DNA of 64,000 nt, from positions 11,160,001-11,224,000 of the forward strand of contig NC_064443.1 of the NCBI RefSeq assembly GCF_023343835.1. Direction: 5' to 3'. The position numbers and the translations under genes are program-made. Below the pieces are notes generated by a model. The model saw only the letters and a list, made by a program, of their open reading frames with translations. It searched no databases and was not told the DNA's origin. Origin of the DNA: Lagopus muta. Taxonomy: Eukaryota > Chordata > Aves > Galliformes > Phasianidae. Shown in pieces: positions 12,601 to 51,806 of this stretch (position 1 is its first letter; every line of letters begins with the position of its first letter).

Positions 12601-14099
12601 TCCACTCAGATACACCAAAATCCCCAGAGATTCTCCCACCTGCCCACGTTTCCCAAAGCAGCGATCAGCCTGTGCTGCCTTTGCTACTGAAAGCCTGGGA
12701 GCAGCAAGGACACAGTCCCCCCAGCCTTAAAAGGAAGGCGCACAACCCATGCACAGGAACTGAGATGAATTAGAGAATGCAGCATTGCTGCACCCTGGTC
12801 AGCAGTCACTCCCCTCCCTTTACTGGAAGGAAGGTTTAAGGCAGAACACACGTGGAAAAAATCACTGGGGGTGGTGTTTTGAAACAGCAATCATCCTCAG
12901 TACAGCTCATGTTCATCCTGTGTTTTCCTATGGGATTTACCATGGCTGACCTTTTCAGTACCAACTGTGATTAACGAAGCTTCCAACCCAGCACTGAATG
13001 GCTGCAAATTGCAAGAGATGCTCATCACATTAACATGCAGTAAGTATTGCAGTCCTCAATGAGCACACGGATGGGACAGGGAGCATCTGTGGGGAGAAGC
13101 TCCCTGCCTCACATGTTTGGAGCAGAATTATCACATCTGCATAGCTAGGGAGATGCCAACGAGGCAGACCCAACTTGTTTTGAATAAGGAAAACTGGACG
13201 TCAGTATTTCTTTATAGGCTGGTTGGAGGTTGGCTTGCAAAACCTGGCAAACTGCAGAGATGCCCTGGCAGCATTAGGCATAACGTGATGCAAAACTTTC
13301 TCTAGAGTCCAGTTAAAGCTCATACTGTGCTTGTTAGTGCTGCAGTGCTACAACAGCCCAGCAAAGGACTGAACTATGTACTGCATACAAGCATCAAACC
13401 GGCTGCCTTGGGGGAAAGCAGGAAGTTCTCTACAAATAGAGCACATTCTTTAGCAGATGCATAGCTTCTCCCTTGGACAGAGCATCACCTTCAGTCCGTG
13501 AGATTTATCCACTCCAGAAAAGCCTCTCTGATTAACACTGACTTCCAACTATGCAAGCCACCCAAAGAAATCAGTGCAGTGCCACCAGGAAAAGCATCCA
13601 ACATACCTGAAGGGATGCAATGTGGAGACCAGTACATCGGTCAGAGATGTGCTGCAGTGCTGGGGCTGAGGTCAGTGCAAGGGAAGATGAGGAGGAAATG
13701 CATTACACAGACCCCAGAGATGAGAGCCAGTGCATATAAATCAAGTAACGTGGCAAACTCTACACAGCTGCACGTCAGGGCTCCCTGCTATACCTGTTCT
13801 GTAGAGCCCCCAGTCCAGCAGTGCAGGAGCATCCCTACGAACCGCAGCAGGGCAGCGTTACACAGCACTGCACCAGGGCTGAATTCACGCAGGCACGTCT
13901 CGGCTTGCGGAACAGGGGATGGATTTTCTCTTCCATAGGAGAAGACTTCTGATTCCTAACAGCGCTGTGCCTGGAAGCCGAGATCCCAGAGGGGTCGAAT
14001 ATCAGAAGTAAACAGCGTTCTCTCAAAGCCAGTGGGAGGGAGGAAACGGCGACAGAAAGACAGAGCAGCTGAACGACTCAGCCTCGACCCCGCACGAGG

Positions 14100-15520
14100 C
14101 ACCGAGCAGCACGGTCTCTCCGCGCTTACTAATCAGCAGGACCAGAGAATTCCCTGATCCGTGCATCGCTCACGGTGCAACAGTGCTGCTTCAGACCTTT
14201 ACAAAGTCTGCTTAGCACGGCAAGGCCTGGGGAGGCAGGTGGGGAAAGGATGCAAAAGAAAAAACTCAACTCCCTGTTAAACACTCGCAGCAACGGGCAA
14301 TAAAGCTGAGGCTCAGTGTGCTCGTGCCCGTCCCGTTCCCCGCACCTCCGTTTCAGGCGATTACGACAGAACCGCGCTTTCCGAGGCTGAAACTTTCCCA
14401 CCGCTGCCCCCGGCTCCACTCCGGATCCGCTGTGCGGGACTCGGGGCTCCGCCACGCGGTGGCACCCAGCCGGAGCCTTTTCCCGACCTCCCCGAGCCGC
14501 AGATCCGGCGTTCGTTTCACACACCTCGCTCCGCAGCACGTAAGCAAAATCATTCGCAGCCGCCGCAAGCAATAGTAAGCGGCACAATAGGAACGAGATT
14601 ATCGCCACGCGTCCTCTGTGCGATTCGCAAACCCGCTCATCCCCATCTTGGAGTTGAGCGCTGGGAAGAACCACCGGCTGAAGGCAGCAGCACCAGGAGC
14701 TCGAGAAGTTGGAGCTCAGAATGCCCCCAGCAGAACCGGGTAACGGGGCGGCCGGCTGCACTCGGGCTTTCTCCCACCGCTCGGAGAAAGAGCAGCGAGA
14801 CCGAGCGCCAGAGCTCACCCCCGCCCGAGGGCGAGAGGACAGATCGGCTGCAGCGAAGTTTAACGGCATTCAGACACCCCCCCGCCCGCGGAGCTCCGTG
14901 CCCAAGCTCAGAGACCCTCCCCTCCTACTCCAAAATAACGCTAATCAGAGCAAAAGACGGAGAAGGAGAACGAGCGCATCCCTCAGCCCTCCTTCCCCCG
15001 GCCGGCTCTCACCGTCCTCTTGCATCCGCTGCAGGCACAGGGCGAGGCTCTTTCTCCAGCCCGGCATGGCGGCGGGCAGCACCGCCGCCCCCCGGGGCAG
15101 CGGCACGACTCGGGGGACCCGGGGGGGGCTGGCGGGAGCGGCGCTGCGAGCGCTCCGGGCTCCCCGGCGCTTTATGGCCGGGCGGGGCGAACGGCGGGGC
15201 CGGGCCGGGAGCCACGGGAACCGCCCCCGTCTGCGCGCAGCGGCGCGGCCGAGGGGCGACGGTTGTTCGGCCGCCCCCGCGCCGCCGGTGCCCGGGAGGA
15301 CGCTCGGCTCATTTAACGCGTCGTTTCTCTTTCTGCTTCAACCCCGGCGCCTTTTGCAGCGAACGCCCAGCCCTGGCGCGGGCGCGCTCGTGGGTTCACG
15401 TGTTCGTGCCCGAGTTGGGCTTTGCTGGGAGGGAAGTTGCGCGACGGTCGGACTGCCGGGTTTCGTCTTTGTCATGGCTGCGTGCGAGCAGGTGAAGCCC
15501 ACGAGGGGGGCTGGATAGCA
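14100..15520. promoter_or_regulatory. GRIP2: CpG island, proximal GRIP2 promoter
   Basis: The stretch is densely CpG- and GC-rich compared with its flanks, and it surrounds the first exon at 15,013-15,067. On the minus strand an ATAAAG-containing TATA-like string lies at 15,171-15,176, about 105 nt upstream of the ATG. Long open frames on both strands here (for example 14,129-14,869 minus and 14,709-15,518 plus) are explained by base composition and match no family known to me. Confidence 0.7.
15013..15067 (-). CDS. GRIP2: GRIP2 proximal alternative first coding exon (palmitoylation-type leader)
   Basis: On the minus strand the exon starts at ATG 15,067-15,065, codes MPGWRKSLALCLQRMQED plus one base, and stops at a good donor (G|GTGAGA, intron from 15,012). 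GRIP2 (ABP) is a multi-PDZ scaffold binding the C-termini of AMPA-receptor subunits GluA2/3. The known palmitoylated isoform carries an 18-residue alternative leader with the modified cysteine at position 11, and the GRIP1 counterpart starts MPGWKKN. Length, Cys11 and opening residues all agree. Gene order also fits, because CCDC174 follows divergently, as in human. The PDZ exons are outside the window, so this is a partial gene. It could be the sister gene GRIP1 on leader similarity alone, but synteny argues for GRIP2. Palmitoylation would place the protein at membranes and spines. Confidence 0.8.
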
Positions 15521-18500
15521 TCTTTGTCATTTCTTCATATTCCAGAGGTTTCGGTGCTTTTATGCGAACACAAAGGAGATGTTTATTGTGTGCGCCGTGG
15601 TTGGTGTGCTTTTAATTTCCTGGGAGCAGCATATCTCTGTAATGACTAGCTGCTGCTTTTTGTTCTTTGTCGGGCCTTTCGTTATCTGCCTGGTAGGTCT
15701 CTGCATCTCTGCCTCCTTTTGCAAGAGCAATAACGTTATGTGCAACAGCTGCAGACCAAGTTGTCCTCGGGATAGCGTGAGCTAATTCCAGGGTCAGGAT
15801 GCACCTGGACCAGCACGGCAGCTGCAATGCCATCCACACAGAGATGCCTGCACAGACTCCAGCTTAGTTTTAAGAACAGTTTTTTTGTATTGCTATAGGA
15901 TAGGCAAGGGTCAGCCCTGCCCCTAGCTCACATCTGAGAAGTGTTTGCCATTTTGATTACGAGCACCCAGGTCTGCAGGGCACATGCCAGGCACTGGGCT
16001 CAGACACATTTCTGCAGCCTGGTGAAAGCTGTAATGCTATGGCAGGCCTGGGTGTGATCCTGCTCAGAACACCCTCCTGCAGCTCCTCTTTGTCTTGGAG
16101 AAAAGCAGCTTCAGTAGAAAGGCAGACCTACCAAAGTCTGCAGCAGAGCCTGAGGGGTGAGAATCCTAACAGAGGTGCTTGAGTTAAACAGCCACTGATA
16201 GATCAGCTGAGTATTTTTCATTCCTCCTCTCACAGATTCTTGAAGAGCAACTTAAGAGCTGGACTGGAGAGGACCTGTTTTGAAGTTGCCATCATTACAG
16301 TATTTTCCCTGCAGAGTCACACTCAGGTAATTGCAGCCCCGGGAGAATGGCTCTCTTCCTTTAAGCGTAAGAGTTTGCAGCACTGCAGACAGCGGTTTGT
16401 CACACCTGAGCACTGCACAGGAGGTTCCCATCACAGCAGAGGAGGTCACGCTGACTCCCCTCCATGATTCTGAGCAGGGAGTTACCCAGCAGCTTAGGCA
16501 GTGATTGGAGTGATGGTGCCTGCAGACTTATTGCAGCCAGCTGGAGCAAGTGCTTCCAGGAGCTTTCCTGAGGAGTAGCAGCAGCAGGAACAGATTGCTC
16601 AGCCCCTGCCCATCTTCTGCTAGCAGCACAGAAACAAGAAATCCTTCATGCAAAAATTCACAAAAACTTTTTTTTTTTAATTACCATATTTGTAATTCGA
16701 AGTAGAAATCAACTCCCCAGTCAGCCAGAACTTAAAGAGACGTGGGGACTGAGGTAGGTCAGGATGGGGGCTGCCTGCATTGCCGACCTGCTGCCATTCC
16801 TTCTCTCCTCTAAAGAGGAGCTCTCTTCTCAATGAGATCCTTTCATTAAATTGTGATGTTTTTTTCTGCAGATCACTTCCCAGGGGGAAACAGCCCTCTG
16901 CAATCTGATTGCAATGTATGTGGTACATTGGACTAGCAGCAAATCACAACTCCGTAGCTGGATTTGATCAGGGTACATCACACTGACACAGGAGGTTTGT
17001 GATGGGCACAAAACATTACAGCTGACCACGAAACTCCAAAACTTTTTTTTTTTTTTTAAGAGAAGAGGGAGGAGCCAGCACTTGATCAAGAGACAAAACA
17101 CAGCAGGTGGGGCCAAGTGTTGCTGGGCCCTGGTCTGCCTCAGCCCCCACACAGAATCACCGCCTGCCCTGCTGGGCCTTCGTTCCTCAGCTGTAATTTG
17201 TAATTGCTTGATGATGTGCAGGTTGTGTGTGTGAGAACGGGGTTCCCAGAGAAGTAATCATTATTGATCTAACGCTGCCCTCAGTAAAAGTTCTGAGAGT
17301 CTGAGGATAACAGGACAGATGAAGGCACTCCTAAAATCAAGGTCAAATTGACACTTTCTGTACCGAAAAGTTTGCCTGTGTTGCCATTTACACTGGCTGC
17401 TCTCATAAAAACCTTTCTGCCTTAACGCCTTTAGACCATCAACGCTACAACAGTGCTACTTTTAAAGAACATCAGTGCCACAGAAATAATTAAACATGAA
17501 AACAGCAAGCACAATACTAGTTGAAAATGTAGCCTAGGGCTTTTAGCAATTGAATTTAACACCTACATTATTGTAAAAAGACCTAAAGCTAGTATGGAGA
17601 GGCTCCCTAAAGCGCCCCCCATTAGCCTAACTTGAGCACTAAAGTGGGAAATTGAACCAGAGATAACAAAGCAGCTGGTCCTGAACAGCAGGATTGCTCC
17701 CAACAAGTTTGTAAAGAGCAATCTGTGCAGCTCCTCAAACACTGCACCTTCCACCCAGCAGCTTGCTTTGGCACACAAGGAAAGAGTTGGGCCAATTGTG
17801 CTTTAATTCCCATTGCAGCTGTAGGAGGGAAAGATGAAAGCACAAAGTTTTTCAATCTCAGGAGCTGGCTGTTGAGCAAAGGCTTGGGTCTGTTGCCAAG
17901 TGTGCAAACCAGGCTTTTCAGATCAGATCTGTTTATTGTCACTCTGTTGCACGCTGTGTGTGCAGAACAGTGAGCAGACACTGATATCACACCTTTTGTG
18001 AAAGGAGGTTTCAGATATAAAGCAAATCCCATTTTCCTGAGAGGGTTAAGGAAGGACATCCAGGCTTTTTTGCCTTGACCCGTTTGTCTCTAGGCTTCTC
18101 CAGCAAATTCTCCTGGCACATGCTCCCTTATCTTGCAGGTCACAGACTTTGTCAGCCCACAGTGACAATAAATTGACTTCCTGCAGCCAGGAAAGTTAGG
18201 GAAAACCAGACAGCTTTTGCTACCAGCCCCAAAGCAGTGATTTTAGAGGGCTCCTTTACCATTTCTGAGCCAGTGAGGAAGTAGCACTTGGGAGACCCTC
18301 AGGAGCAGCATTGCTGTCCACTCCCACCAGCAGCTTGGGCAAAGATGTACTGCCACTGAGGAGCATCCTCCAAGGTCACACTGCTTTACCACGGACGTGG
18401 CATCATGAAACACTCTGGGAAAATGGGAAGTACACCTCGATGCAGCTGGGGTTTCTGCTGTTGCAAATCTACCACCTTAAGCTATGGGCTTTGCCTCCTG

Positions 18501-20200
18501 TATTGATTTACAGCTACTGCCTGGCAAAATTCAATATTAAGATCAAGCTAGAAATTACTTTGACCTCTGCAATCCTACAAAAACAAGATCTACTTAGGTA
18601 TCTAAACTCATCTTCTCATTTCTCTCTCCCTCTTCAGCGCTTACTTTGTTAAGTAAGAGAGAAGTTCCCTTTCTCTGTCAAGGTTGGGCTGCTGTGAGTG
18701 CTGATGCAGTGCACCCTGTATCCCTGCAGCTCTGCATGGGACAGGCAGGGGACAACGGGCAGCCTATTTCCATCCCACAGTGACAGGTAAGTGGCACACA
18801 GCTACTTTAACAAAGTCTATTTTCACCTCCCAGGCACATAAAGTGGGGCTGGAGACAGAAGGATAAGTATGTCACAACACCATCAAGAGGGATTTGTTTC
18901 ACTCATGGATGCTACCTATATGCAGCAGTGTCCTGTAGCCCACAGAAGCAGTGAACAGGATTGAGATCATGGAATTTAGAAGTAATCCTGTCATGCTGGA
19001 AGGTTAAAGGCAGTTTTAAAATGGATTATTTTTGTTGCTTCCACCAAAGGTTGATCAATAGCAAATTCACCTATTAATCCCACTTGGTTCTGTTTTGCCT
19101 CCAACACAGACAGTACAAACAGTTTGAGTTTGATGTCTGCTTCTTGTTAGGAACTTCAAGGCACACTTTCATACTACAGATTTCTACAGAACTACTCACG
19201 TCAAATTAGGTTTGAAGGCTGAAAGCAGGCTGTCATTCCAACTTTCCTGGGTGATTCTCATGCCTCTGAAAAGCTGAGCATCTTTCAGAGAAGCAGAGCA
19301 TGTCTGTGGAATTCATTCACCCAAGAATAGACCCCATTTGTAAGCACCATGAGCGTGTGGTTACCACTGTGCTCTGTCCCTGCTGGAAGGAAACTCAGAA
19401 GGGCTTCTTGTTTCTGCCCCAGAGATGTGCTCAGAGATGAGCTCTGAAGCTGGTTCCTCGCATCTTTCCTTGCAAGTCACAGCACAAACACAAAGGAGCT
19501 CAGACCAGCCCTGCACCACTTTGCAGTCAGCCTCACTGCTCTGTCAGAAACATCAGCACTGAAACAAGACCGAGCTCTGTCCCTCCCTTAGAGGGATGCT
19601 CAGGGCCATGCAGCACTCAGCTCCACCACAGCTGCTGCACATTGATTTCCTGCCTGCTGAGGCAGGTTTCAGAAATTCAGGACCATGTTGCATGTTACTC
19701 TGCAGAGCTCCCAGCAGTTGGCACAGGGCCTGAAGTACTGCAGCTGATACAGTTCTTAACAGTATCAGTATTTGCTTGCCAATGTACAGTGTAAAGCAAC
19801 AGCCATTCTGACCGCGTCTAAAGCCTGGTTTGGTTGGGCAGCTGACAGCTTCATCTGGGTTAGAGTGAAGATGCCATGAGATCTGGACTGCTCTTTAGGT
19901 GGACCGCCTGAACTCAGTCACAGCAGTGTAAGAGCCACCTTTTAAATCTGATTGAAGATGCTGCTCTTGGAAACACATTCCTTTCCCTTCCAGAACTGCC
20001 TGCAGGTTTCCCTCCTTCCCTTTTTTTGCCTCTGTTAATTTCTGCTTTGTGCATACCATCTTTTCCCCCTAAACACACACATTCAATACTGCCTCAAAGT
20101 CTTTGATTCCAGGCAGCCAGATCACAATTTGCCTCTGGCTGCACAAGGTTTCACCTGTTCCCCACTGCAGAGGTGCCTCAGGAAGGATTCACCCAGATAA

Positions 20201-20262
20201 ACTAGAGGATCTGGATGATCTTTGAGATCCATTCCAATCCAAGCCATTCTATGATTCAATCA
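20201..20262 (+). repeat. CR1 LINE 3' end, short
   Basis: The string 'gatgatctttgagatcc', then 'ttccaatccaagcc', then 'attctatgattcaatc' is the terminal part of a CR1 element in plus orientation, cut to about 60 bp. Confidence 0.75.
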
Positions 20263-20929
20263 CTTCAGAAGGAAACCAGAAGCCGTTTAAATGAGTTTGA
20301 GGTGAGCTTCAGTTGTGCTTCAGTGGCAGATGTTTTGGCACATGAGAACAGGCTCAGGCCCACCATTCATTCCTGCAACAATCTCAGGCTCCCTCCTGAG
20401 TCTTCCTTAAATCAGAACTGGCATCACACTCTCATCTATTCCATTAAAGATGCTTCAAGCTACTGCCTTTGGTACTAAACAGGGAAACACCACCTATCCA
20501 TCTCTCAATCAGGACCATCCACACCGGCATTTCACAAAGACTAATATCAATGTTATCACAAGATTCAGTACTTCCCTTTTTTTCTGGTCAGTGAACAGAA
20601 GTAGTTAGAGAAGTGAACAGGAAGCAGAAAGGAATGCTACAGCTCCATTAAGGTATGTTAATAATCCTTACTGGGCCTGTGTTGCTTCCTTGTCCTTCTC
20701 ATGGCAAGCCAGCCCCAGCTGTCAGTAACACATTAATGACCTCAGTGCATTGCAGGTCAGGAAAGGAGGAGAAAGACAGTTATAAATCATTGCAATTGAC
20801 CTGTTAATCTTAATGGAATCACTTCATGTACCTGCAAATACATGCAGAGGGGATAGGAAAGAGGTAACGGTCACTACAGTGTTTTGCCATACGCTTTCAG
20901 AAAACAGAGCAGCTATTGGATATTCTGGC

Positions 20930-21008
20930 TCACCAGGTCAGGCTTAGGTGAGGTTGATAGATTTGATGATCTCAAAGGTCTTTTCCAACCTAAATGACTA
21001 TGATTTCT
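20930..21008 (+). repeat. CR1 LINE 3' end, short
   Basis: The stretch has 'gatgatctcaaaggtctttt', then 'ccaacctaaatgactatgat', the characteristic end of CR1 in plus orientation. The 8-bp end repeats are diverged. Confidence 0.75.
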
Positions 21009-23395
21009 CCCACACTAGCTAGCAAGAAAGTTAGTGCTTTGGGCAAGAAGTGGGGGGAAAAAAAGGAAAGCTGCCTTTACCTTCAAGGAGTGTAGGCCCC
21101 CTCCTCTGCTGTTTTATGAAGTACTGGCATTGCACACTTTGTACAGCTCCCTGCTGTAGATGAGGAGTTGCATGGCACTCATCAAGGCTTTAATAAAGCA
21201 ATCACTGGACTTGTGCCTGATGTAATTACTCATTTTGAAATATTATTCCACTTCCCATTCCACTTGTCTATATTTGACTAATGGCAGCAGTGCCACACAC
21301 ATTTCTATGTTCTCTATGTGCAGACACTCAGTATTTCTTTTCCCAATTATTTCTAAAATAACATCCATAATCACTGAGCTTTCTTTTGCAATCCATACAG
21401 CAACTCGTCAGTGCCTTCTGGGCTTCTATTTTAAGTAATCTTTGTATCAGGAGCTCCAGTCTGGGGACTGGAATCTGTTTAACAACAGGACAGGAACCAC
21501 TGAGGAAAAAGAAATGTGTTCCCCTTAGGAGTGAAAAGGTGTCTTAGTGTTCCTCCAAGAAGCAGCCTTTTTGGAGAATTCCTTACCTAAACAGCCTCAT
21601 ACTTGCAAGGGCACTGCCAGCTGTGAGTTTGACAGAGTGACAGCTGCTACACTCAAGCCACTTGCCATATAAGCACTCGTCCAATTTTTATTTCACAGAG
21701 CTGGGTAAAGCATAAGCCAAAACCCAAGGCCCACTGAGCCATGCACACTTTGAACTCACGACCTTTGAGAATCCAAAGGGAGTCCTCTTGAAATTCTGGG
21801 TTCTCCACTTGTGAAAAGTAGTGTGAGGAAACAGGACAAGTGAGACTGAAAGAATGGGGAGAGGCTGATGATTTGTTCCTCAAATGCTGGAGAGATGACA
21901 GAACTGCAGGGGGGAGACGGTCATTTATGGCAGGCTACCTCTGCAGAGTGCTCACAGTACCACAGAGAAATGAGCTATATGGCTGCAACAATAGTCTTGC
22001 ACTGCCCTCTGCTGCACTGAGATCCAGCTGCCAGCAATTCACCTCTGGGACTTGCTGCTGAGAGTGAGCCATCCACAGCTCTCTTTCTTCCTTAGACACA
22101 GGTTCCTTGTACTAGGAGGATTTTGCTATATCGCCTTCTGAGCATTTCTTCAGACATACACAACCAGAAAGACAACGTGCCTCTTCCACCCTGTGTTCTG
22201 GGGGCAACTCGGGGTGACAGATGGTGAAAGAGTACTTCATTCAGATAAATTGAAGCGATAAAATGAAGAGGAATTTGAACTAGAATGAATCAAAGTCTTC
22301 AGCCGCAGCGAAAAATGCAATCCTATGATTTTAGGACATCCAGCAGCAGCTTGCCACCACCAGAATAGTAGAGAAGGAATACAGAGTAGCTTTGTTTTTT
22401 CAAAACAAACAGCCATCGCTGCCACTCAGCCACCTAGACAGGCATGTGGTTGATAACTGCCAGGTAACCAAGGCCCATAGGCTGGAAAAGAACCATGCTC
22501 AATTATGCTGATTTACATCTCTCCAGTGCATCAAGGTAGAAGTGACTGTATGCCATCTTAAGTTCAAGTGTGCAGATTTAATCATTCCCATGCATTAGGG
22601 AATCACAAGCAGAGCTACAGTCTGCTCAATTACACCAGCCTGCCTCCTGCGCAGTGCCAGGAATCAGGCCCTCCATAACCACAAAGGGTTCTGTAGGGGT
22701 GCTAGGCCCTGTAGCACGTATTCCTGCCACCATGCCAAGTTAGGATACCAGAATTTGCTGCCACGAAACCTGTTGGTTTAAAATAATTCAACTTAAACCA
22801 TGGGATATAAACAGAATCATTTCACAGGCAGTGAAGGCGACATAAATATGGGTTACACTATCACCCTGACACTAAATGAACATAAATAACAGGGTTTCAA
22901 CTAAGAGCTAGAAAGCAGCCTCTGCAGAAAGTTACAGCCACAGTGTACATGTGTCTGTCTACCTGCCACGATCAATAACCAGAGATTTCTTTAAGAAAAA
23001 CAGAGCATGAAGCAGGTATGTGATCTCCTAAGACTCCAAGTGTTATGCTCTCATAGCGACCTTTTAACAGACACACAGCCTCAGCACTGTACAAAGCTAC
23101 ATCTGCTGGGCCGAGCTCAGAGTACAGGCAGGGCTGTAAGCAGAGCATGAATTACTGGCAGCATCTTCACAGAGATCTGGAACAGGGCTTTCAAAGAGAA
23201 ATAGATTGTAAGGAGAAAAATCTTAAAGAAAAGGGCAGAATTATGCTCTTGGGTCTTTTTGTTTGCTTCAAATAGCTGGCCAAATGTTTTGGGGTTTCCA
23301 GCAACATCAGTGGGAAGCATTGAGCCTAATTCCTTCCTGTGAGCATCCTAGATCACAGCCTCCCCCATCACTGTCGTATTCCCCTCTTGCCTTAC

Positions 23396-23450
23396 CTCCA
23401 TCCTGCATTTTCTGCAGACAAAGAGCAAGGCTCTTCCTCCAGCTCGGCAT
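23396..23450 (-). CDS. GRIP2: GRIP2 distal alternative first coding exon (second palmitoylation-type leader)
   Basis: On the minus strand ATG 23,450-23,448 opens MPSWRKSLALCLQKMQDG plus one base, ending at a strong donor (G|GTAAGG, intron from 23,395). It has the same 55 coding bases and the same splice phase as the exon at 15,013-15,067, and differs at 4 of 18 residues. Cys11 is kept. Either exon could therefore be joined to the same downstream exon, so the protein would start with one of two near-identical leaders. Unlike the proximal exon it has no CpG island; a TATA box lies about 85 nt upstream. I read it as a duplicated alternative first exon with its own promoter. It could instead be a decayed duplicate that is never transcribed, but the intact frame and donor argue against that. 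Confidence 0.7.
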
Positions 23451-23533: not shown

Positions 23534-23539
23534 TTTATA
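23534..23539 (-). promoter_or_regulatory. TATA box of the distal GRIP2 first exon
   Basis: TATAAA in the context CTATAAAG lies on the minus strand 84-89 nt upstream of the distal ATG. A start site about 30 nt downstream would leave a leader of roughly 55 nt. An ATAAAG string also sits upstream of the proximal exon at a comparable distance. Confidence 0.5.
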
Positions 23540-26500: not shown

Positions 26501-28240
26501 GAATGCTGTTCCAATGCAGCATCTAGACAGGTAAACACAAATAGCGTCAAGGAAGGAAGAAATACATCAAAGATGTTTTCCTTTTCCAAGTTTGCAAACT
26601 CACATTTTTAGCACTCGAAACAGATGGTTTTCTTGTAAGAATTGAAAAATCAGAATGGTGCAACAAGCAATGAAAAGATATGGGCAGGTCATAGAGGAAA
26701 AAAGAAGCAGCAAAGAAAGAAGGCAGCAAGGAGCTGCCTTAGAGGAGCCACAGGCTGTGCCAAGCAATAAGGGATCCCACAAGGTCTGATTCCAGACTTA
26801 AGAACAGGACAGATGACAGCGAGGTAGGAGTGGCTGCCAGAGTAGTGGCCTGAGTCAGCATTTGAATCATCTTTCCTTTCAGTCAGAAAAGACAAAGAAG
26901 CACTGAAGCACCTACAAGCTATTCAATATGACATTTCTAAAACCATTCATGTAAGATCCTAGAGCCTCAGACACTAAGCTTAGGAGGCAGTCACAGCACC
27001 CTACAAGTCAAGTTTTCAAGAAGTCAAGATGTCTTAGAATGTTTTTGCATCTGCAGTTACATGGGGAGATACAGGTCCAAGTCTGACTATCAGCTCTTCA
27101 GTTACACTTCACATTATGAGACTCCCAGGATAAAGAGGCTCTTGAGCTCCTGAAAGTACTTAACACCTACAGCATTAGCAGTCCAGAGGGATGAGCAAGC
27201 AAGTCCTATCACTGTAACATGGAGCATGAGCAACATGGAGAAGAATCCATGAACTTCAAGGGGGAAAAGATAAAAGTCAAAAATTACTAAATCAGAATCA
27301 AGCCTAGGTTGGGTTTGGGCTGTTTTTAATTCTCAGTATCGTCAGTAGGTGAGGTTTGGAAAGGCACTTCACACCTTTTGTTGGAGTGATATTTAACTAG
27401 AACAGCACAGATGTTTTCATTCCTTTGTTCTATTTATCAGCAGTGCTCATGTCTCTTCTTACACTGCAAATTAAAACAGGAATTCTTGTTGCTCTCCAGA
27501 GAAGGGTAGCTCATGTTAGATGTTGTCTCCCATCATTTCCCCTTATTTTAAGAAACCAAAAGGAATTCAACTTCACTAAAGCCACAGACAGCTTTTCTGA
27601 ACTACCTCTTTAATACTCATGGGCGTACAGGTGTAACTGCTTTAGCTACCGAGTATCTGTGTCAGTAATCTGCAATTCTGTGCCAATGAACTACCCAAGC
27701 ATGGGCTGGATCCGGCTTTCCAAACACAAAAGCAGCACATTTCAAAAAGCCAAAGAACTGCATGAGACATTTCTATCAGCTGTCACATTGCCAAGCAACA
27801 ACATCAGCACCGTATATTTTACCACTTTATTGAAGACAAGTGAAAGGCAGCTTCCCCTTGTAACTCTGGATAATTATGATCTGAATCACTCCAAAATTAA
27901 AACATATCAGCCAATCCTTTTATCTCACAGAGAGAATAAAGCAGATAACGAGCTACCCAGGGAAAGCACAGCAGCGACTCTCCGAGACCAGCCTCCACTC
28001 ATCTGAGGCTCCAGCACGCGCAGGGGGGTTTGTATTGGGGCGTTATGGACAGGGCTCAGTCCTCATCAGCTCACATCCCTCAGCACTGCCCCGCGAGAGC
28101 CAACGACAACGACCGCAATTCTGCTCAGCACAGCCTCAAGCAAGGCAGCGGTTACAAGGCTAAATCCACATCCAAGCAGCACTTCTCTCTAGCAGTCATT
28201 CACCAACTAAACCAGAACTGAAGTCACTTTTGCTATGTAA
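23560..28240. other. Divergent spacer between GRIP2 and CCDC174, no gene seen
   Basis: Neither strand shows a recognisable exon. This is the head-to-head spacer between the minus-strand GRIP2 distal start and plus-strand CCDC174. Short open frames (for example 27,659-28,006) have no family resemblance. Confidence 0.5.
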
Positions 28241-28368
28241 CCCCCCCACAATCCTTCCTTGCGCAGCCCCATACTCAGCACCTATGCCACGGAGACTCCA
28301 TCCTCCGCTTCGCCCAGCAAAGCGGCAGGGAAGTACCCATCAGCCCATACCAGCGCTGCCGTAACAGC

Positions 28369-28413
28369 GCCGCACTTTACGACCTCGCCGCACTTTACGG
28401 CATCGCCGCAAAG
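28369..28413 (+). repeat. 18-bp direct repeat in the CCDC174 promoter
   Basis: Two consecutive 18-bp units (28,369-28,386 and 28,387-28,404) share GCCGCACTTTACG, followed by a partial third unit (GCCGCAAAG). It ends about 50 bp upstream of the CCDC174 ATG. Confidence 0.8.
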
Positions 28414-28461
28414 CGGGGACGGAAGCGGCCGGCGGGAGGTTGCCGGGGAGCTCGGGCCGCC

Positions 28462-39124
<10,663 letters not shown>

Positions 39125-47145: not shown

Positions 47146-48656
47146 GATGCCAGCACCGTTCCGCTCCGCTCCACACCGTTTCCGTCTGACCCCACACGGC
47201 CGCCGTAGCAATTCCGCAGTAGCACTTCCGCCGCTGCCACTTCCGCTTCCGGCGCCGCTCCTCGACCCTGCGGGCAGGCACGGGGGAGGGCGTTGTGTGA
47301 GGGGTTGCCCAGAGGCTGCTGCCACGTCAGGTAGGGCCCTGCTGCCGGGCTCGTCCGCCCCAGCGGTAGTGGGGAGCGAACGTCCCGCCGTAGCGCTGTC
47401 CTTGGGGTGGGGAAGCGCGCTTTCCTCGCGCTGGCGATGTCGGGGCGCGGCGCGGTTGCGCTGCCGAGAGAATAGCGCGGCTCCGTCAGTGTGAGCGCGA
47501 TGAGTCGCGTCGCCTTGGCGCGCGGTGAGGCCGTCGCGGAGCTGATGGCTGCTGTTGCTCCGTGCTGCGTATGTTTCACCGGATATAAGTGGGCCTTCAG
47601 GGTGAGGAGCCAAGTTAAAAAAGACCTCATTGCAGATGTCTTCCACTGGGGAAGCCGTTTGTGTTTGCACGCGTGTTGCCCCCAGCCGGCTAAAGTTAGC
47701 ACAGGTAACCGTTGCCAAATAAAGCAGAACAACTGCAGTAGTGCTCGAGGTTTCGTGAATGCTGTGGGTTTATAATATTGTTCTGGTCAAATTCTGACCT
47801 AGCCTTACCCAAACTGTATAAAAATTCATTGAGGCTTCATCAAGCTTCAGTGAGATTTTGCCTGTTTATGCAGTTTTCAGAGGAATGTGCTAAGCAGAAA
47901 ATAAAAGTTTTCCTTACACGTCACTGCTGGTGTTAAGCAGCAGCCAGTGTTGTTTCTGCAGGGTAAGCAAGGATTTTAAAATTCATTTTAAAACACAGCC
48001 ATAAAGATGTATTCACTGCCTGATGTCTGTATGAACACTTGGCTCCTCCTCGTAGCTCAGTTTTGCAGGAAGGTTCCCAGAAAAACCCATGTTCAGTTTA
48101 GCACTGCTGTGTTTTCTCTCTGCCCATTATATATTTGTCTTTCTACTCTTCAGTGCTTTGGTTGTCTGTAGAGTGTGAGGTACAGGGAATGATGAAAGCC
48201 CATTTCTTTCCCTTTTCAAGGTTCTTTTTTAATGCCTCTTTCTCATTTCTTTTCTTTTCCAGAATTGTTAGCACCTGTGATATTAAATGCCAAACTCAAA
48301 TGTGAAAGCTCAAAGCAAGCTGTCATATGGCGATCACACCTGTGCCGAAGCATTACATTACTCTGCAGCTACTCCTGCTGGTATCTGTGCACAGTCACTA
48401 TGCAGTGAGTTAATCAAGAAGTATGGCAGAAGTACTTAATTACAGCAGAAAAGCAGGGATCTGTGGCACAGCTGTCCTTTGATGAAAACTGGAAAGTTCC
48501 CTGTGTAAGTAATGGTGTAAAACTAGCGATGGTTTATCCATCTAATTGTGTTGGTATTTTTGGCATGTGTGTTTAATTTTAAGAGGCATTTACCAACCTT
48601 AGTTTAATAACTTTTTTCTTTTTGCAGCACTTTTCTTTGGTGACTGAGTACAAGAC

Positions 48657-51600
48657 ATGGGGCCAATGAAGTATAAATCAAGTGTGTCATCAGTGTCCTG
48701 TGGGTTGCAGTATCACCATTCTTTGATAAAGCAGAGTCAGAAAATGAATGTACACTTAGTGAGGACCTACTGTGCCTCCGGACCGAAGAGGCCCGAAGCC
48801 AAATCAGCCATAGAAACTGCTGTGGGTGTTCTGAACCGGATGGCAGAAGCTGGGGCTGCTGTGGGGAAAAACTCCTTACAGAAAATATCTGCAACTGGCA
48901 GGAACTGGTGGGACAAATACGAAGAGTTCGTTGGGCTCAATGAAGTTCGGGAGGCTCAGGGAAAAGTGACGGAGGTAAATGTGGAGATAATGTAAAAAAA
49001 TAAAATTGAAAATTATGATTATGCCATTAGGAGAACTGGCTGTGAGGCTGAAGAGAGCCTCCAAGGAGAACAGTGTCTTTTTTTCTGCTTTAACTGGCTG
49101 TGCAGGTACTGTGACAGAGCCCTAGCCTAGTAAGCTCAGCACACGTAGCGTATCCCCTGTGCTGTGATGAGTTGTCCCCTATATTGTGTTGAATTGTGTT
49201 ACTTTTATTTTCCTCCCTGAAATCGTATGACTAACAGTTTACATCTATCTGTTAATAAATCTGTTAATAAGTCTCTAAAACAAGTAATCTCTCTTCCCAG
49301 GCTGAAAATGTCTTTATGATAGCTCGAGGGATTGTACGACAGGCTCGTGAAAATGTGGAAGCCCAGCAGGTAAAGCTGAAGGAAGTTCGGGACCGCTTGG
49401 ACAGAGTCTCTCGGGATGACACCCAGTATTTAGAACTGGCTACGCTGGAACACAGATTGCTGCAGGTAATTTCCTGGTATCTGAATGCTGGCAAACACGA
49501 ATTAAAAATACGTGCTTTGTTTCTGTCACCAGTGACTGGTTCTGCAGATATGCATTAGTATATAAGTCCAGTAATCTGAGTTAATTTTTGTGATAGTTGT
49601 TTTAATTGAAGCAATGTGGGGGACTTGATCTGATGTGGAAATCATGTTCATCTTACAACAGGGTAGTGCATTTGGAGACAAAAGCTGAAAAACCTAGAAC
49701 GTTGTTTGAATGGTGACAGGTGCATGGAAAAAAAAATATATATACATATATATATATGGGATTCAACCAGTTAGTTTCCATATCATGAGAGAAGTGCATT
49801 TCCAGTTGTTAAGCCATCAAAGCCATTCCCGTTCACCTGGCTGCAGCCCCCACACAGTTTACTAAGGCTTTTGTCAGAGAGCAGTAAGAGCAAGGCTGCT
49901 CCATGAAGGAGAACAAGCAAGAAGATGAGGGGGACCTCAGCACAGGCAGGGGCAGTGTCCTGCACCAACAGAGTGCAGTCCTCATGCACCTTGTCAGAAG
50001 GAGCCAAGCAGGCTGGCAGTAGCAGCACAGTCATTCATAGTCCATCAGTCACAGATGAAAGCATGATAGCAGCTAAACTCCAGAAATCTGAGTGAAGCTG
50101 CAGGAAACAGGCTGGAAACTGGCACATCTATGGCAAAGCTTGGGCAAGTAATAAGTTAATAGCTATGCCTGAGCTTAAATGGATCTTCTGAATCAATAAG
50201 CAGAGCAACAGCAAAGAACTAAAAAGAGCTGTCCAAAAAACAGATCAGGTCTGTGTAGATGAGATTTCAAGAACAGAGCTCTGCATCAGTGTGGAGAAAG
50301 ATAGAACTAAAGTCATCACTGTATGGTGGTACTGCTGCCTTACAAAAGAAATACATGCTCAAAAGACAGATAGTTTGGGGAATGCAGTCAATTGACAGAC
50401 AGGTTCACTATCAAAAACAGTTTTTCCTTTGCTAAAAATTTTACTGCAGGAAAATAGCCATAAAGTTTCCACTGTTTTGCTGAGGTAAACTGGCCTACAG
50501 CAGGAACTGCCACACCAAAGCCAGGAGGGGCAGAAAAGGAAAACATATGTCTTTGAACAGGGGAAGAAAGAGAAGGCAGAGGAGTGAAAAGTGTATGTGA
50601 TCATGAGATGAGCCTTTCCAGGACATCCTTTCCAGGACTATTTTCAGTTCCTGTTTTAAGGGAATTACAACTGAGATGGAGAAGTGGGGTGGAGGTGGTG
50701 TTTGGAGAAGTATGCAGAGCCAGAGAAAGCTTTCTTTATGGGGAGGGAAAAGCTGCCCATTTGTAGCACTTTTCTATCATCACCATGTGACAGATTATGC
50801 TTTAGACAGTCTTCAAATGTAATTCTTGATGATCTTTTCCATGTCTTAGCTTTGACTTAAAATGATGCCTCACCAATTTAAGTGGGATTAATAAAGAAAA
50901 TCATACGTTTAAAAGAAAAATCTATGAAACAATTTCTGAAACAACTGATGGATGCACTTTTTTCTTTCTTTATAATCTGAAGTTACAAAATGGTGAAGTT
51001 ATAAAATCAAAGTGCTGTGTTTCTTGCAGGAGGAGAAGAGGTACCGAGCTGCCTACTTAAATGCAGAAGAATCTGAGCGAGAAAAATTTTCTCTCTTCTC
51101 CGCTGCTGTAAGGGAGAGCCATGAGAAAGAGAGGACAAGAGCTGAAAAAACAAAGAACTGGTCTATTATTGGTTCTGTGCTGGGAGCTGTTATAGGTGTT
51201 CTTGGTTCCACCTATGTTAATCGAGTAAGGCTGCAGGAACTGAAAGTCTTGGTGCTTGAAGCACAGAAGGGCCCAATAAATCTGCAAGAAGCCATCAAAG
51301 AGCAGGCATCCACCTATGACTTGCAGCAGAAGGATCTCAGCGATGTCATAGCAGACCTGAAAAACATTCTGCAAACAAGGACGTCGCAGGGAATAAAAGA
51401 AGGTGTTTTATTGGCAAGAGAAGACAGGAGTGACTCCATAAAAATAGATTCTCTTTTAATTCCTCTAAAAGAACAGCTTAACTACACTAAACAAGTCAGT
51501 TCATGTCTCGGGAGTTTACAGCAGCAGTTTACCCGTCTGCAGGAAAGCATAGCACAAATCATTGCTGAGGTGCAGAGCGTTAAACTTGCGCTTCATTCTA

Positions 51601-51806
51601 GACCTATGGAAAGAGTAGCAGCCAGGTCATCCGGGGAGAGTAAGGGCCAGGCTGCTGCTGTGAGAGATGTGATTTTAGAGCTGTGTGATACAGAGCGGAG
51701 ACTGGAATCGCAGATCAAGAGGAATTCTATGTACAGCACTGCACTGACATGTACTGTGTTTGCTGTTAGCCTGCCGGTACTCTATGTTTTACTGAAAGGG
51801 AACTGA
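48657..51806 (+). CDS. CCDC51: CCDC51 (MITOK), complete, 3 coding exons, 419 aa
   Basis: Coding exons: 48,657-48,974 (exon begins at acceptor 48,628); 49,301-49,465; 51,030-51,806, all phase 0. CCDC51 is a mitochondrial inner-membrane protein reported as MITOK, the pore-forming partner of ABCB8 (MITOSUR) in the ATP-sensitive K+ channel. The most conserved blocks are visible: [60 protein letters not shown] and [20 protein letters not shown]. Residues ~1-60 are basic and variable, as expected of a targeting leader. A coiled coil follows (~85-200), then TM1 at ~205-227, a soluble helical segment, and TM2 at ~396-416 with the family ending [11 protein letters not shown]. The human protein is about 411 residues. 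The ATG at 48,657 is the first in the frame; in-frame Met4 and Met30 are alternatives. Confidence 0.95.
49736..49757. repeat. AT dinucleotide microsatellite
   Basis: A short interrupted (AT)n tract lies in CCDC51 intron, between its second and third coding exons. Confidence 0.8.

Follow-up and report, generated by a model that had tools for sequence, protein, structure and literature searches.

Two homologous Cys11 leader exons of GRIP2 in Lagopus muta are compatible with an anchored scaffold under two separate controls

GRIP1b and the palmitoylated form of ABP-L (GRIP2) have similar N termini in which Cys11 bears the lipid, and the two GRIP2 isoforms differ by an 18-residue N-terminal variant, as described in passages of two reviews (PMC7802216; PMC6502786). 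According to a passage of the first of these, palmitoylation of the GRIP2 leader sets a spine-head surface versus an intracellular location, with the palmitoylated form (pABP-L) going to the surface of spine heads and the other form being internal (PMC7802216). In a further paper this isoform is called GRIP2b/pABP-L, and its palmitoylation is said to have arisen in early vertebrates (PMC8634674). Here we describe the upstream part of GRIP2 in Lagopus muta, where a window of 64,000 nucleotides (C14:11,160,001-11,224,000) contains two homologous leader exons, b1 and b2, each encoding an N terminus with Cys11; the analysis is one of sequence only, in a single genome. The arrangement resembles that of mammalian GRIP2b/pABP-L in having an 18-residue Cys11 leader as the alternative to a second N terminus in front of a shared GRIP2 body, but a single palmitoylated isoform is described in the mammalian passages, whereas the ptarmigan has two leader exons with differing promoter composition. 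Duplicated variable first exons, with their own promoters and common downstream exons, are known from UGT1A and the clustered protocadherins. Ptarmigan GRIP2 is like these in having homologous alternative first exons that can be joined to common exons, and it is unlike them in that its leaders, of 18 residues each, are just two in number and resemble each other; what sets them apart is likely to be control and not protein sequence. In the passages of the GRIP2 literature that were searched, we found no mention of two Cys11 leaders, although genome annotation may already hold both isoforms, and the leader peptides searched as text in the literature gave no match.

The two exons had been pointed out in an earlier note on this DNA, and its coordinates, strand, peptides, coding length, phase, donors and listed residue differences were all correct on recheck (Table 1). 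Both b1 and b2 have 55 coding bases, 18 residues, phase 1 and a GT donor, they lie about 8.4 kb apart in tandem, on the same strand and in the same phase, and both peptides begin MPxWRKSLALCLQ, Cys11 included. Their leaders agree at 14 of 18 residues, the differences being Gly3/Ser3, Arg14/Lys14 and the last two positions. Positions 4-13, which span Cys11, are identical, so the copying is likely to bear on the place and time of production of the anchored form. At the DNA level b1 and b2 are identical at 42/55 bases, against 31/55 for the runner-up ungapped placement of either exon on the two strands of a 264-kb region. Moreover, all ATGs of these 264 kb with 54 open bases behind them and a GT at +55 were scored with BLOSUM62: the b1-b2 pair reached 80 and the top unrelated candidate 27. 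The homology of the exons and the retention of Cys11 in both, as the earlier note had proposed, are borne out by these comparisons, and b2 is very probably a real, homologous and coding-competent leader exon.

The attribution of these exons to GRIP2 was supported by a PDZ match and by in-frame joins to GRIP2 exon 2. The body of the gene (exon 2 and the PDZ exons found) shares the strand of the two leaders and lies outside the window, at C14:10.96-11.01 Mb; the human GRIP2 protein maps there exon by exon. In the window itself, a search with a GRIP1 protein as query gave no convincing PDZ exon (best E 0.19). One GRIP2 PDZ domain matched PDB 1x5r (GRIP2) with 182.2 bits and the corresponding domain of GRIP1 (1p1d) with 156.1, and PDZ1 had a GRIP1 chain (2qt5) as its top match, with no GRIP2 chain among the 14 matches listed. 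Pfam was run on eight proteins, of which six gave no family (four of those being pieces of one neighbour gene); it recognised PDZ in the GRIP2 piece and gave no family for the b1 leader joined to exon 2. Nearer to exon 2 than b1 and b2 we found a third first exon, the a leader, which the earlier note had overlooked. All three leaders end with a lone base G and join exon 2 in frame, so each continues D-D-G-P-Y-S-K-G. The reading frame of b1 could be followed through exon 2 into exon 3 with no stop, and those of b2 and a through exon 2, and the first introns measure by coordinates ~167 kb (b1), ~175 kb (b2) and ~52 kb (a). The a leader has a Cys at position 8 (MFAVSLKC), as does GRIP1a (MIAVSFKC); the human GRIP2 a leader has Trp at this position. 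An ATG directly followed by TGA stands 33 bases before the start codon of the GRIP2 a leader.

Searches of the whole genome (165 contigs, 1,026,658,476 bases) also located GRIP1, and the order b - a - exon 2 is common to both paralogues, with one extra b in GRIP2. The GRIP1b leader is like the GRIP2 b leaders in length, phase, Cys11 and its distant upstream position relative to the a leader and exon 2, and GRIP1 is unlike GRIP2 in having, by pattern search, one b copy and not two. The exact b pattern gave five genome matches, namely GRIP1b, GRIP2 b1, GRIP2 b2 and two chance-like ones, and since it requires an exact fit more diverged b leaders would escape it. The matches at C1:75.76 Mb and C59:70.30 Mb were rejected as chance because they have no GT at the leader end or an earlier stop, and a match to the a pattern at C1:103.73 Mb was rejected for a stop at codon 13. 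The second b leader looks like a gain in GRIP2, because GRIP1 gave a single b with the pattern that finds both GRIP2 ones. With b1 DNA as the query, the genome search matched b1 itself alone and not b2, so a DNA search is blind to copies as diverged as these. The base identity of GRIP1b, 38/55 to b1 and 37/55 to b2, barely separates the copies, and its residue identity is 10/18 to b1 and 8/18 to b2. Six residues are common to b1 and b2 and absent from GRIP1b (R5, S7, L8, A9, L10 and M15), which makes it most likely that the b exon was copied after the GRIP1/GRIP2 split. At G3 and E17 b1 agrees with GRIP1b and b2 differs, the reverse being found at no position; b1 is probably the older copy, since it has Gly3, Glu17 and a CpG-rich promoter in common with GRIP1b.

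The earlier note had assigned different promoter types to b1 and b2, and indeed their base composition differs sharply: the observed/expected CpG ratio (CpG o/e) is 1.01 for b1 (from ATG -500 to +200) and 0.105 for b2, with 0.893 for GRIP1b and 0.327 for the GRIP2 a leader. The TATAAAG before b2 is one of 13 occurrences on that strand in the 264 kb. CATAAAG stands at -109 of b1 and at -136 of the GRIP2 a leader, and GRIP1b has no TATA-like motif of this kind within the 160 bases examined. The composition and the TATA box suggest separate control of b1 and b2. A 1-kb piece around b2 had no other match in the genome at E 0.001, and an origin of the putative b2 promoter from a repeat was rejected on this ground.

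Table 1. Coordinates of the GRIP2 and GRIP1 features (positions without a contig are those of the window)
Feature	Position	Strand	Description
GRIP2 b1 leader exon, coding part	15013..15067	-	MPGWRKSLALCLQRMQED + first base of next codon; Cys11; donor ACG|GTGAGA
GRIP2 b2 leader exon, coding part	23396..23450	-	MPSWRKSLALCLQKMQDG + first base of next codon; Cys11; donor GAG|GTAAGG
GRIP2 a leader, third first exon	C14:11,060,843-11,060,897	-	MFAVSLKCRLGVVRRRNK; 55 coding bases; phase 1; without Cys11
GRIP2 exon 2	C14:11,008,295-11,008,375	-	starts AT GAT GGC CCT
CpG island around b1	14001..15750		six overlapping 500-base windows, GC 0.57-0.74, CpG o/e 0.89-1.06
CATAAA, TATA-like motif	15171..15176	-	starts 109 bases upstream of b1 ATG; putative function
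TATAAA motif	23534..23539	-	starts 89 bases upstream of b2 ATG; no ATG in between; putative function
GRIP1 b leader	ATG at C1:34,203,282		MPGWKKNIPICLQAEQER; 55 coding bases; phase 1; Cys11; CpG-rich promoter
GRIP1 a leader	ATG at C1:34,045,874		MIAVSFKCRCQILRRLTK
GRIP1 exon 2	C1:33,996,402-33,996,479		found in same genome

Between b1 and b2, 8 of 10.3 synonymous sites differ (pS 0.77), compared with 5 of 43.7 nonsynonymous sites (pN 0.11; Fisher p 4.5e-5). Under free drift of b2 alone, four or fewer residue changes would have a probability of 0.034, 0.0056 and 0.0012 at 0.3, 0.4 and 0.5 substitutions per site. Both b copies look kept by selection, and the statement of the earlier note that both are intact agrees with the frame, phase, donor and Cys11 being kept and with the coding differences being mostly synonymous.

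The reading that we consider likely, a promoter of its own for b2 and the timing of the copying included, is that three alternative coding first exons (b2, b1 and a; 55 bases, phase 1) can be spliced to one GRIP2 exon 2; b1 and b2 are Cys11 leaders, predicted to be S-palmitoylated, and a lacks Cys11. The ancestral GRIP order would have been b - a - exon 2, as retained by GRIP1 in the same genome, and in the GRIP2 lineage the b exon would have been copied ~8.4 kb upstream, with b1 retaining its CpG-island promoter and b2 using a TATA promoter poor in CpG, whose activity would presumably be confined to particular tissues or stages. Under such an arrangement b1 and b2 would make essentially the same membrane-anchored GRIP2, and the gain would be in where and when. 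If true, this would give a neat example of a lipid switch that has come under two separate controls, the proteins staying much the same and the promoters diverging. In frogs, GRIP2 has a germ-plasm role. Passages on the chicken list GRIP2 among germ-cell-related genes unequal between left and right female gonads (PMC5486120) and among the changed genes of the shell gland (PMC6347800), and a passage on zebrafish identifies the maternal-effect gene hecate as grip2a (PMC4072529). Given these chicken gonad and shell-gland data and the zebrafish maternal data, a non-neuronal GRIP2 promoter is plausible; the cited passages name no first exon. That b2 in particular is an old, bird- or reptile-wide non-neuronal promoter of this kind (germ line or oviduct), giving an anchored scaffold outside the synapse, seems to us doubtful. 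If it were true, a first-exon duplication would link the maternal role of GRIP2 in zebrafish, and its germ-plasm role in frogs, to its synaptic role.

Several observations weigh against the reading of two selected leaders derived by duplication within GRIP2, and they concern the flanks, the dating and the constraint. A search for 25-base repeats found nothing linking b1 and b2, the gapless identity of their flanks is 29, 23, 27 and 18 of 100 in four blocks, and the flanks are no more alike than pieces drawn at random from these 264 kb. In gapped alignment the 1500-base flanks scored 300 versus a maximum of 290, and 263 versus a maximum of 256, in 100 local shuffles; these scores were nevertheless reached by random pieces of the 264 kb in 80/200 cases upstream and 80/200 downstream against copy 1, and in 169/200 and 193/200 against copy 2 (with strict gaps, in 71, 39, 84 and 81 of 200). 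The flank homology that the shuffle control had suggested was therefore rejected, since the random-piece control points to composition. The top-scoring local alignment begins right at the ATG and, with loose gaps, runs 46 bases past the exon (196 versus 163 for the exon alone); with strict gaps it extends 37-38 bases past it (175), and we do not count this as flank homology. The interpretation of the earlier note held in part: for the gene, the homology, Cys11, the frame, the promoter composition and the constraint, and, as regards its tandem first-exon duplication, for homologous exons in tandem on the same strand and in the same phase; the flanks lend the tandem mechanism no support. We infer a tandem duplication from position and orientation, because the flank homology is gone. 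One could ask whether the likeness of the leaders reflects convergence or chance, given that the peptide is short and the flanks are without homology, but the 42/55 versus 31/55 bases, the common length, phase, strand and gene and the score of 80 versus 27 leave this next to no probability. As for the dating, the synonymous divergence (dS) of b1-b2 is undefined by NG86 and 1.35 by YN00, and the NG86 values of 0.72 for b1-GRIP1b and 0.96 for b2-GRIP1b are both below the latter. LWL85 gave 0.58 for b1-GRIP1b and no value for b1-b2 or b2-GRIP1b, and YN00 gave none for either GRIP1b pair. Third codon positions are G or C in 16/18 codons of b1 and of GRIP1b but in 11/18 of b2, and exit from the CpG island may account for part of the b1-b2 synonymous change; because such a shift in composition may inflate the synonymous difference, we date the duplication no further than old. 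A duplication of the b exon before the GRIP1/GRIP2 split, followed by loss of one copy in GRIP1, would suit the lower NG86 dS of b1-GRIP1b compared with b1-b2, but the ranking of dS tracks composition, and the closer residue agreement of b1 and b2 with each other than with GRIP1b, together with the six residues that these two have in common, makes it very improbable.

On the side of constraint, the test rests on 18 codons in copies that differ in base composition, and at 0.1 and 0.2 substitutions per site the drift probabilities for b2 are 0.74 and 0.21, values compatible with neutrality. These values would also suit b2 as a relic, an old b-exon copy whose transcription has ceased and which is intact by chance, as would its CpG-poor surroundings without a CpG island and the divergence of its flanks to background. 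We regard a relic as improbable nonetheless, since 8 of 10.3 synonymous sites have changed compared with 4 of 18 residues, two of these four changes are conservative (Arg14Lys and Glu17Asp), the final five codons contain three of the four, b2 has retained frame, phase, donor and Cys11, and the drift probabilities fall to 0.034-0.0012 at 0.3-0.5 substitutions per site. Alternatively, b2 could be used internally, in transcripts that begin with a non-coding first exon further upstream and not at a TATA promoter of b2 itself. An unscored acceptor-like candidate, rich in pyrimidines and with AG at its end (TTTCTATTCTAG), lies upstream of its ATG, and a CpG island is found 4.6 kb further upstream, at 28.0-29.0 kb. 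Yet a canonical TATAAAG begins 89 bases before the ATG, which suits a short 5' untranslated region, and the island also suits the start of a plus-strand gene that we take to be CCDC174, so that the internal-exon arrangement appears rather unlikely. We continue to prefer a b2 with its own promoter.

Two further genes were seen in the window. Open stretches of one of them lie on the plus strand at 48648-51803; it is presumably CCDC51, and in Pfam the protein of 50997-51803 gave one match, below the cut-off. The presumed CCDC174, at 28222-39121, is oriented head to head with GRIP2, and its start seems to lie in the CpG island at 28.0-29.0 kb. Four pieces of this gene had no match in Pfam. Its last open stretch contains, at 38645-39040, two adjoining tandem-repeat arrays with a 42-base unit (3.9 and 4.6 copies), both of which code for peptide repeats in the open frame.

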